Shown: positions 14,793 through 17,504 of the stretch, piece by piece | Layout of the letters: the number at the start of each line of letters is the position of its first letter | Numbering within the stretch: the stretch's first letter is position 1 | Virus record (IMG/VR): IMGVR_UViG_3300046001_000488 | Location: 1-21,774 of that record | DNA: 21,774 nt | Direction: 5' to 3' (one strand) | Source: a virus | Notes under the pieces: generated by a model | What the model was told of the DNA's origin: nothing | Databases searched by the model: none | The model's input: the letters and a program-made list of their open reading frames with translations, nothing else | Made by a program: the position numbers and the translations under genes

Positions 14793-15077
14793 GTGGCAAC
14801 TAAAAAAACAGCAGTAGCCCCTAAAAAAGAGAGTCCACAAAAGGCTCTTCCAAATATCTTAATGCGTATTGTAGCGGTATTTGCAGCATCAGGATTATCA
14901 GTCTTAGGAGCAGGAGCAGTAGTAGGAATTGACACCATTCAAGCAGTAATGCTTGCAGGTCTATTAGGCGTAGCAACAGTGGTTGAAAGGCTGGCTAGGG
15001 CTTTTTTGGACGATGGAAAACTTACAATAGCAGAAATAAATGATGCATTTAAGACTGTAGATAAAAAGGCTAATTAG
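14793..15077 (+). CDS. holin-like membrane protein
   Basis: A 94-residue protein starting at GTG 14793, with GAGAGGAAG about 7 bases upstream and one base after the previous stop. The layout is a Lys/Pro-rich cytoplasmic start (1-20), two membrane segments (about 23-45 and 48-66), and a charged end LDDGKLTIAEINDAFKTV. Hydrophobic helices with a DGKLT-x-x-EIN-x-AF end recall actinophage holins, as best I remember. It would form membrane lesions that let the endolysin (17939-18724) reach the wall, although that gene is 2.9 kb away and has its own promoter. Confidence 0.65.
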   Translation: MATKKTAVAPKKESPQKALPNILMRIVAVFAASGLSVLGAGAVVGIDTIQAVMLAGLLGVATVVERLARAFLDDGKLTIAEINDAFKTVDKKAN

Positions 15078-15093
15078 TCATTGTAGGTTATAG

Positions 15094-15123
15094 TTGACAG
15101 CCCTCCCCAGGCGATGGTATACT
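15094..15123 (+). promoter_or_regulatory. sigma-70-type promoter (TTGACA-18-TATACT)
   Basis: TTGACA at 15094-15099, an 18-base spacer and TATACT at 15118-15123 make one of the best promoters in the window. Transcription should begin near 15130. It serves the HslV-like gene and overlaps the palindrome at 15100-15148. Confidence 0.85.
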
Positions 15124-15148
15124 TAAATATACCAATCTGGGAGAGGGC
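15100..15148 (+). promoter_or_regulatory. nested palindrome over promoter and ribosome site
   Basis: The outer arms are GCCCTCCCCAG (15100-15110) and CTGGGAGAGGGC (15137-15148), complementary except for one inserted base. The inner arms are GGTATA (15116-15121) and TATACC (15128-15133), perfectly complementary around CTTAAA. The left outer arm lies in the promoter spacer. The right outer arm contains the GGGAGAGGG ribosome site of the gene starting at 15155. A transcript reading through from the holins could fold and hide that site; one started at the local promoter lacks the left arm. It could also serve as an operator. Confidence 0.75.
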
Positions 15149-15154
15149 ATTGTC

Positions 15155-15679
15155 ATGACTTGTATTGCTGTAGTCAAACATGAAGATAAGATCTATATGG
15201 CTGGAGATCGTGGTGCCTCTGATGATGGAACAATTTTAGCACTTGATGCACCAAAGGTTTGGAAGATAGGTCCGTATCTAATTGGTTATGCTGGATCAAT
15301 GGATGGTGAAAGAATTAGATATAACTTTAAACCATCTGCACCAAACATTAAAGATATAGATAAATTTATGCAAACTAGGTTTATTAAAGAACTTCGTGAT
15401 TTTTATAATGAGTTTTGGGTAGACACATCAAAAGAAGGTGATCTTGGTTTAATTATTTGTGTTCGTGGTGAAATATATGAACACAGTTCCGTAGACATGT
15501 CTTTATCTAAATATACAGTTCCTTATCTTGCAATGGGGTCTGGTGCAGAATATGCCTATGGAGTTTTATATGCAACAGATAAACAAAAAAATGCAAGGAA
15601 TCGTGTAATTTCAGCGGTATCAGCAGCAATTAAATTTAACCCATCATGCATGGGTCCAGTTGACGTGGTGAGCATTTAA
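15155..15679 (+). CDS. HslV/proteasome-beta-like Ntn hydrolase peptidase
   Basis: A 174-residue protein of the Ntn-hydrolase fold used by HslV and proteasome beta subunits. After removal of Met1 the nucleophile would be Thr1 (MTCIAVV). Asp17 (MAGDRG) and Lys33 (APKVWKIG) fall at exactly the mature positions of the proteasome catalytic triad. The GSG motif (LAMGSGAEYA, 128-130) and GPVDVVSI near the end also match. The length is typical of HslV, and no propeptide is visible. No HslU-like ATPase is in the window. It may degrade peptides, process phage proteins or target host factors in the cytoplasm. It has a dedicated promoter and palindrome. The alternative is a diverged Ntn hydrolase with another substrate. 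Confidence 0.85.
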   Translation: MTCIAVVKHEDKIYMAGDRGASDDGTILALDAPKVWKIGPYLIGYAGSMDGERIRYNFKPSAPNIKDIDKFMQTRFIKELRDFYNEFWVDTSKEGDLGLIICVRGEIYEHSSVDMSLSKYTVPYLAMGSGAEYAYGVLYATDKQKNARNRVISAVSAAIKFNPSCMGPVDVVSI

Positions 15680-15688
15680 GGATATACT
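15660..15688 (+). promoter_or_regulatory. promoter for a near-leaderless transcript (TTGACG-17-TATACT)
   Basis: TTGACG at 15660-15665 and TATACT at 15683-15688 are spaced by 17 bases. The expected start is close to 15694-15696, which is the ATG of the next gene, so the messenger would be leaderless. The -35 lies inside the end of the HslV-like gene. Confidence 0.7.
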
Positions 15689-15693
15689 TAGGT

Positions 15694-15900
15694 ATGGATG
15701 AAATAGAAAATATCTTAGATGATATATCAAGTTATGAAGAGTTTGAGATTTGGTTAAATAACGGAATTGATCGGGGCTGGATAACAGAACCGTTCTGTAA
15801 TACACATGAAGGAGATCCCTTTATGACAGACGAAGAGTCAGAAGAGTGGGAAGCAGGTGGCGACCCATGTCAAGTAGTAATCAAAATAAAGGAGCAATAA
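15694..15900 (+). CDS. small acidic conserved protein of unknown function
   Basis: A 68-residue, very acidic protein (EIENILDDISSYEEFEIW) with the blocks GWITEPFCNTHEGDPF and AGGDPCQVVIKIKEQ, which look like a conserved phage family. C and H in FCNTH and C in DPC could bind metal, but no fold is assigned. The ATG sits five bases after a TATACT box, so translation may be leaderless. TAAGGA at 15677-15682 is a rather distant alternative ribosome site. It ends in a TAATG overlap with the subtilase gene, so the two are probably expressed together. Confidence 0.72.
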   Translation: MDEIENILDDISSYEEFEIWLNNGIDRGWITEPFCNTHEGDPFMTDEESEEWEAGGDPCQVVIKIKEQ

Positions 15901-16788: not shown

Positions 16789-16864
16789 TGGTCTGTAACT
16801 CAGTTGGCAGAGTGAGAAACTGTTAATTTCTAAGTCGTAGGTTCGAGTCCTACCAGACCAGCCA
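16789..16864 (+). tRNA. tRNA-Asn (GTT), CCA encoded
   Basis: The acceptor stem TGGTCTG / CAGACCA is perfect, the D stem is ACTC / GAGT, and the anticodon stem AGAAA / TTTCT has loop CTGTTAA giving GTT. The T arm is GTAGG-TTCGAGT-CCTAC. Discriminator G is followed by an encoded CCA (16862-16864). It begins seven bases after the subtilase stop. Confidence 0.95.
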
Positions 16865-16865
16865 A

Positions 16866-16939
16866 GCGAATATTGCATAGTGGTAGTGCGTAACCTTGCC
16901 AAGGTTAATGTGCGGGTTCGATTCCCGCTATTCGCTCCA
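16866..16939 (+). tRNA. tRNA-Gly (GCC), CCA encoded
   Basis: The acceptor stem GCGAATA / TATTCGC is perfect. The D stem GCAT / GTGC has one G-U, and the anticodon stem TAACC / GGTTA has loop TTGCCAA giving GCC. The T arm is GCGGG-TTCGATT-CCCGC. Discriminator T is followed by CCA (16937-16939). One base separates it from tRNA-Asn. Confidence 0.95.
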
Positions 16940-16940
16940 T

Positions 16941-17012
16941 GCCCTCATCGTCTAGTGGTTAGGACATCACCCTTTCACGGTGGTAACAGGGGTTCAATTC
17001 CCCTTGGGGGTA
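16941..17012 (+). tRNA. tRNA-Glu (TTC), CCA not encoded
   Basis: Acceptor GCCCTCA / TGGGGGT pairs with two wobbles. The D arm is GTC-TAGTGGTTA-GGAC, and the anticodon stem TCACC / GGTGG has loop CTTTCAC giving TTC. The T arm AGGGG-TTCAATT-CCCCT has a slightly unusual T loop. After discriminator A the DNA reads CTA, so CCA must be added enzymatically, unlike in its two neighbours. One base separates it from tRNA-Gly. Confidence 0.95.
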
Positions 17013-17087: not shown

Positions 17088-17504
17088 ATGGTAACACAGT
17101 TCGCAATGGATCTATTCAATGATCCTTTTTTTATTGGCTTTAATAGAGAACTAAGCCGTCTCAATACAGCACACAAAACAAACTCTCAATCATATCCTCC
17201 ATATGATCTTCTTAAACTAGATGAAGATACATATAGACTGTCTCTTGCTATTGCAGGATTTACAAAAGAAGATATTAATGTTTCAGTAGACAATGGAACA
17301 CTTATTATTAAAGGTGAGATTGTTGAAGTTACAGACGCTGAAGTTGTTCATAAGGGGATTGCTGGTCGTAAGTTTACCCGCACATTTGCTCTTGGTGAAT
17401 ACATGGAAGTAACTGGGGCTGATCTTAAAGACGGTATGCTACATATCAATTTAGATCGCATTGTTCCAGAAGAAAAGAAGCCAAAGGTTATTAAGATAAA
17501 GTAG
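17088..17504 (+). CDS. Hsp20 small heat-shock protein
   Basis: A 138-residue alpha-crystallin-family chaperone. A short N-terminal arm (DLFNDPFFIGF) precedes the crystallin domain, which begins YPPYDLLKLDEDTYRLSLAIAGF and includes NGTLIIKGE, AGRKFTRTFALGEYMEV and DGMLHINL. The C-terminal I-K-I motif (KVIKIK) would dock between subunits. Hsp20 genes occur in several aquatic T4-like phages, where they are thought to help capsid assembly or protect proteins during infection. The gene has its own ribosome site and probable promoter. Confidence 0.95.
   Translation: MVTQFAMDLFNDPFFIGFNRELSRLNTAHKTNSQSYPPYDLLKLDEDTYRLSLAIAGFTKEDINVSVDNGTLIIKGEIVEVTDAEVVHKGIAGRKFTRTFALGEYMEVTGADLKDGMLHINLDRIVPEEKKPKVIKIK

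Follow-up and report, generated by a model that had tools for sequence, protein, structure and literature searches.

We analyzed an entire virus contig of 21.8 kb (IMG/VR record IMGVR_UViG_3300046001_000488; 21,774 nucleotides, hereafter the window), in which a palindrome surrounds the promoter of an HslV-like gene lying directly behind a gene for a holin-like protein. Judging by its terminase, which is 54% identical to those of Streptomyces phages such as Coruscant and Karimac, the phage is actinobacterial, and the low GC content of the window suggests a low-GC host. The upstream gene (positions 14793 to 15077 of the + strand, which carries all of the features of this locus) encodes a small membrane protein of 94 aa that matched PHROG 443, a holin family, with an E-value of 0.003; its best PHROG match, phrog_26427, bears the label 'nuclease', which is probably wrong for a small membrane protein. 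This gene stops 16 nt before the −35 element of the next promoter and is the presumed source of read-through RNA, and no + strand terminator was listed between the same-strand upstream genes and the HslV-like gene. The latter, the putative controlled gene (15155 to 15679), encodes a 174-aa protein that starts with MTCIAVV and matched PF00227 (E-value, 9e-6; above the cut-off) and the HslV family PHROG 1040 (E-value, 2e-22). Together with the threonine that follows the initial methionine, the profile matches point to an HslV/proteasome-type N-terminal-nucleophile hydrolase.

The promoter between the two genes consists of a −35 element, TTGACA (15094 to 15099), which is kept in almost all of the relatives that have a promoter here, and a −10 element, TATACT (15118 to 15123), which is preceded by TG; it matches the consensus at 11 of 12 positions and has an 18-nt spacer. 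The left (5′) arm of the outer stem, TGACA-GCCCTCCCCAG (15095 to 15110, with GCCCTCCCCAG at 15100 to 15110), is located upstream of the transcription start, within the promoter. The right (3′) arm, CTGGGAGAGGGC (15137 to 15148), holds the Shine-Dalgarno sequence GGGAGAGGG (15139 to 15147) and is extended into the start codon by TGTCA (15151 to 15155), which pairs with TGACA at 15095 to 15099, so that the A of the ATG at 15155 is itself paired. An inner helix is formed by GGTATA (15116 to 15121), which overlaps the extended −10 element, and TATACC (15128 to 15133), the latter being absent in several relatives that retain the outer stem (L060, L055). A sequence-only reading of this DNA had described the palindrome as a switch that hides the ribosome site only in read-through messages; all of the elements it named lie where it had placed them, and the stem extends further than it had described. 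A single base bulges from the right outer arm, and for this reason the general inverted-repeat finder did not report the hairpin.

Folding of the RNA from 15080 to 15175 gave −37.8 kcal/mol, compared with −22.8 ± 3.3 kcal/mol for dinucleotide shuffles (z-score, −4.6), none of 200 shuffles being as good. By contrast, the RNA from 15130 to 15175, which lacks the left arm, was predicted to be open (−6.1 kcal/mol, no better than shuffles), as had been anticipated for a message with and without the bases before 15130. The predicted probability that the Shine-Dalgarno sequence is unpaired was 0.11 at all four read-through lengths, whereas it rose to 0.60 without the left outer arm and to 0.49 in RNA started at 15129 to 15131.

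The position of the transcription start was calibrated on genes of the same phages that carry the same type of promoter. Among 131 TTGAC/TATACT promoters with an ATG at most 14 nt from the −10 element, 125 had exactly 6 nt between the −10 element and the ATG, and leaderless-looking genes thus appear to be common in these phages. If such genes are leaderless, the first RNA base is the seventh after the −10 element, which places the start in the window at 15129 to 15131, calibrated to 15130, in agreement with the earlier guess; the left arm would then always be missing from locally started RNA. Five contigs (L083, L084, L085, L086, L087) also share a conserved promoter-like sequence, TTGAC-17-GGTATACTTACATATACG, which lies in the last part of a coding sequence (..MGDGILTYTKTEDGR..) and may reflect either a promoter or coding constraint.

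To compare the arms in relatives, we gathered several hundred loci, some of them on the same contigs, by four protein searches and one DNA-pattern scan of IMG/VR. An HslV-like start with sufficient upstream DNA was present at 319 loci, 302 of which carried a promoter, nearly always of the form TTGAC-17/18-TATACT, and these 302 were reduced to 152 distinct combinations of leader and upstream gene. A first comparison set comprised 129 distinct leaders, in which the spacing was 17 or 18 in 126 cases, and the folding and covariation comparisons were made on 25 representatives. In the relatives that have the stem, the geometry is that of the window: the left arm lies between the −35 and −10 elements and the right arm is the ribosome site, as the sequence-only reading had it.

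The sequences of the stems differ widely (GCCCTCCCCAG/CTGGGAGAGGGC, CCCCTTCAACAG/CTGTTAGAAGGGG, CCCCTTTGG/CCAAAGGGG, TGCCTACCTCT/AGGGGTAGGCA and AAAGCCCCC/GGGGGGTTT) and their length ranges from 13 to 21 pairs, and in 40 of 47 different stems the most Shine-Dalgarno-like hexamer lies wholly inside the stem. When arms were exchanged between members of the hairpin class, the mean pairing weakened from −23.6 kcal/mol for native arms to −16.3 kcal/mol for swapped ones, and none of 5000 permutations reached the native mean. Shuffling of the spacer gave z-scores of −2.8 to −5.7 in the hairpin class, whereas other leaders had no such excess. RNAalifold on the 25 sequences recovered 9 consensus pairs, 7 of them with double compensatory changes, and these counts understate the pairing since the underlying MAFFT alignment was not structure-aware. 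In the hairpin class the predicted probability that the Shine-Dalgarno sequence is unpaired was 0.09 for read-through RNA but 0.51 for RNA begun at the gene's own start; in leaders without the hairpin the values were 0.40 and 0.55, respectively. The pairing is specific to the sense strand: the sense RNA formed a stronger stem than the antisense RNA in 23 of 25 representatives (p = 4e-5), and this excess is greater than the bias shown by swapped arms (−2.2 versus −4.6 kcal/mol). On these comparisons, the pairing is under selection.

The presence of the hairpin depended on the upstream neighbor. It was found in 93 of 96 leaders behind a holin-like gene, but in only 2 of 31 behind a CHAP endolysin gene and in 2 of 18 behind a gene for another small membrane protein. 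The CHAP and membrane-protein genes end 0 to 12 nt from the −35 element, so that a terminating ribosome would cover the left-arm site, and this might matter there. The idea that a close promoter of the CHAP or membrane-protein gene itself excuses the leaders without a hairpin found no support, as no strict promoter was present within 3 kb and, of the 18 membrane-protein cases, only 4 had a weaker one. The hairpin and the upstream neighbor changed together on the HslV tree: the well-supported branches yielded 7 independent contrasts, about 6 of which went in the same direction and 0 in the opposite one (median p = 0.03), and all branches together yielded 16 in the same direction, 0 in the opposite one and 5 ties. 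One lineage has kept the right arm ...GGGGTAGGCATG, shared by its sister groups, behind more than one kind of neighbor; it is the holin-preceded members that also have TGCCTACC, the left arm that matches it. Leaders behind a 118-aa membrane protein (for example, L030 and L048) have another small palindrome, TAGATG-GTATACTTAAATATAC-GCATCTA, which ends just before the Shine-Dalgarno sequence and not over it.

At several loci (L055, L318, L165, L031, L078/L062 and L295) the holin-like gene is separated from hslV by an extra gene, and at each of them the stem covers the Shine-Dalgarno sequence of the inserted gene itself, whether this starts with ATG, TTG or GTG. The inserted genes encode a TP_methylase (PF00590) and methyltransferase-like, weakly sulfotransferase-like and uncharacterized proteins, several having no clear family in the Pfam search. 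In a scan of 2.4 Mb of phage DNA, other genes carried the device only when they were inserts that follow the holin-like gene; the sole other match near −15 (L175) looks like chance. The interval itself is a hot spot at which unrelated accessory genes have been inserted (L055, 2223 to 3004; L318, 1174 to 2001; L078, 1362 to 2216; L295, 1084 to 2001). In L031, hslV behind the insert has a copy of the −10 element and right arm, but neither a left arm nor a −35 element; the methyltransferase-like insert of this locus (268 to 1108, TTG start) is flanked by two −10/right-arm copies (GGTATACTTAAGTATCACCTATCTGGAGAGGGCT), as if these had been duplicated by insertion.

We consider it probable that the hairpin acts as a cis-acting RNA switch that reads where the message began, that is, as a translational block of read-through RNA of the type known from T4 gene e, working with a host-type promoter and forming a boundary behind a lysis gene. 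We infer that the host-type (σ70/σA-like) promoter behind the holin-like gene is used and would give RNA from about 15130, in which the Shine-Dalgarno sequence is exposed and translation can proceed. Read-through RNA from the upstream late and lysis genes would keep the left arm and form a stem of 16 to 20 bp over the Shine-Dalgarno sequence that touches the start codon, leaving the next gene untranslated. Expression would presumably be early when it comes from the gene's own promoter and silenced in late read-through RNA, so that abundant late messages would be kept from expressing the genes that follow. Because the geometry has been rebuilt with different sequences, and on whichever gene directly follows the holin-like gene, a boundary role seems likely, in which the device may mark off the lysis gene from whatever follows it and not serve HslV in particular. 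This gene e-type logic, first put forward by the sequence-only reading, withstood all of the comparative tests run and is supported by their results, including the conserved pairing with compensatory change that the comparison of relatives revealed. The switch appears to be widespread in uncultured actinobacterial phages, probably of fresh water.

A broader form of the proposal is possible, and we advance it only tentatively: the device might be bound to the position, any gene directly behind the holin-like lysis gene gaining or re-evolving, inside its own promoter, a left arm able to pair with the ribosome site of that gene. The next promoter in the window, TTGACG-17-TATACT (15660 to 15693), lies inside the end of the HslV-like gene and is followed by a 68-aa gene that is leaderless by position (ATG at 15694). 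Within a longer RNA, a leaderless start is expected to be used poorly, and the 68-aa and HslV-like genes might thus both be shielded; together with leaderless neighbors, the device would create a block of early-type genes protected from late RNA without a terminator. Further downstream, the window contains three tandem tRNA genes (16789 to 17012), the only matches of an Rfam scan, in which the hairpin matched none of the described families, and an Hsp20 gene (17088 to 17504). With the HslV-like and S8 protease genes, these make up a protein-quality cluster.

Several points weigh against a translational block. The HslV tree is short and mostly poorly supported, and recombination may move the promoter, the left arm and the holin-like gene as a unit, which weakens the tree test. 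The leaders preceded by CHAP or membrane-protein genes lack the block although they, too, lie downstream of same-strand genes, so that read-through RNA need not be silenced in every case. Where hslV follows the inserted gene in L055 and L078, it has neither a promoter of the kind sought nor a matching stem; a direct block would therefore act only on the first gene behind the holin-like gene, and silencing further downstream would need polarity. The hairpin tracks the holin-like gene regardless of which gene comes next, and this leaves room for a rival explanation in which the hairpin serves the upstream gene, by terminating the holin-like message or by forming or stabilizing its 3′ end, and overlaps the ribosome site as a result of tight packing. 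Many of its GC-rich stems have 3 or 4 T behind them, the tails of the hairpin class having 3.2 T of 6 compared with 1.9 to 2.1 elsewhere, a rough count because the pattern often ended within a G run. However, no tail had 5 T of 6, and stems of the L107 type enter the start codon without a T run. Unlike in a short-loop terminator, the GC-rich arms enclose about 25 to 30 nt and the inner helix can be lost (L060, L055); the hairpin is absent from the output of the terminator scan, and it lacks the combination of a GC stem, a short loop and a run of T that marks an intrinsic terminator. Nor does a role at the 3′ end explain why 40 of 47 different stems use the Shine-Dalgarno sequence as their right arm, or why the left arm has evolved to fit a right arm that is also present in relatives without the hairpin. 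We regard this explanation as unlikely.

It is quite improbable that the stem is an RNase III-type site, at which cleavage of read-through RNA would separate the holin-like message from the next gene and destroy the ribosome site. The stem lengths of phage RNase III sites cover the 13 to 21 pairs seen here and the anatomy is compatible, but no sequence or bulge feature common to all stems was seen, and pairing alone would suffice to block translation. The alternative offered by the sequence-only reading, that the palindrome is an operator, here taken as a DNA dyad bound by a repressor with no role for the RNA, fared worse still, and we give it very little credence. Dyads centered on promoters are common operators, and this one surrounds the −10 element, which its inner arms overlap. 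A protein-binding dyad should, however, look alike on both strands, with conserved, strand-symmetric half-sites, whereas the arms found here vary freely in sequence yet remain complementary, and their departures from complementarity are G-U pairs that favor the sense RNA, the antisense stem being the weaker in 23 of 25 representatives. Moreover, the dyad is lost and the promoter kept when the upstream gene differs, which a promoter-bound repressor would not need. That the pairing is a by-product of a pyrimidine-rich spacer meeting a purine-rich ribosome site by chance is scarcely credible: swapped arms within the class do still pair at −16 kcal/mol, but native arms pair 7 kcal/mol better, at 0 of 5000 permutations, and the spacer-shuffle excess (z-scores of −2.8 to −5.7) is confined to the hairpin class.

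The preferred reading, a translational block that depends on transcript origin, has its closest counterpart in T4 gene e, where, as in soc, 49 and I-TevI, the ribosome site is hidden in long early transcripts and free in RNA from an adjacent late promoter, an arrangement retained in related phages (PMC3014915). As in gene e, a hairpin is predicted, from folding and covariation, to hide the Shine-Dalgarno sequence and start codon in the longer transcript; a local promoter lies between the arms, so that RNA started at the calibrated position, 15130, would lack the 5′ arm; and the arrangement is conserved across related phages. Unlike in gene e, the promoter is of the host type (TTGACA/TATACT) and not a T4 late promoter (TATAAATA), which would delay expression until late, and the controlled gene lies behind a lysis gene rather than being one. 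The locus would work like gene e, as a variant in its promoter and probably also in its timing. It also differs in having many different stems and several unrelated genes at the same position, and in occurring in actinobacterial phages, for which our literature search found no paper on such leaders. In the leaders of homing endonuclease genes (T4 I-TevI and Aeh1 mobE), too, a hairpin sequesters the ribosome site in upstream-derived transcripts and limits expression of the embedded gene (PMC3014915). The sequestration in RNA from upstream genes is shared with the leaders described here, but the gene concerned is the first one behind the holin-like gene, usually HslV-like and sometimes an inserted accessory gene, and none of the controlled genes was recognized as a homing endonuclease. 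In the fold-back inhibition of IS10, transposase RNA started outside the element has at its 5′ end an additional arm by which the ribosome site is hidden, whereas RNA from the element's own promoter lacks this arm; the present case differs in being a phage locus and in placing the arm between the −35 and −10 elements of the gene's own promoter.

The same right arm with and without a left arm, and a hairpin that relocates to inserted genes, amount to a natural experiment, and the leaders show how, in a tightly packed phage genome, genes with promoters of their own could follow late genes with no terminator in between. They also provide a simple search rule for such switches, namely complementarity between the spacer of a promoter and the ribosome site that follows it. 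Transcript-origin switches are known mainly from T4 and its relatives; the one proposed here would work from a host-type promoter and has been repeatedly rebuilt with new sequences.
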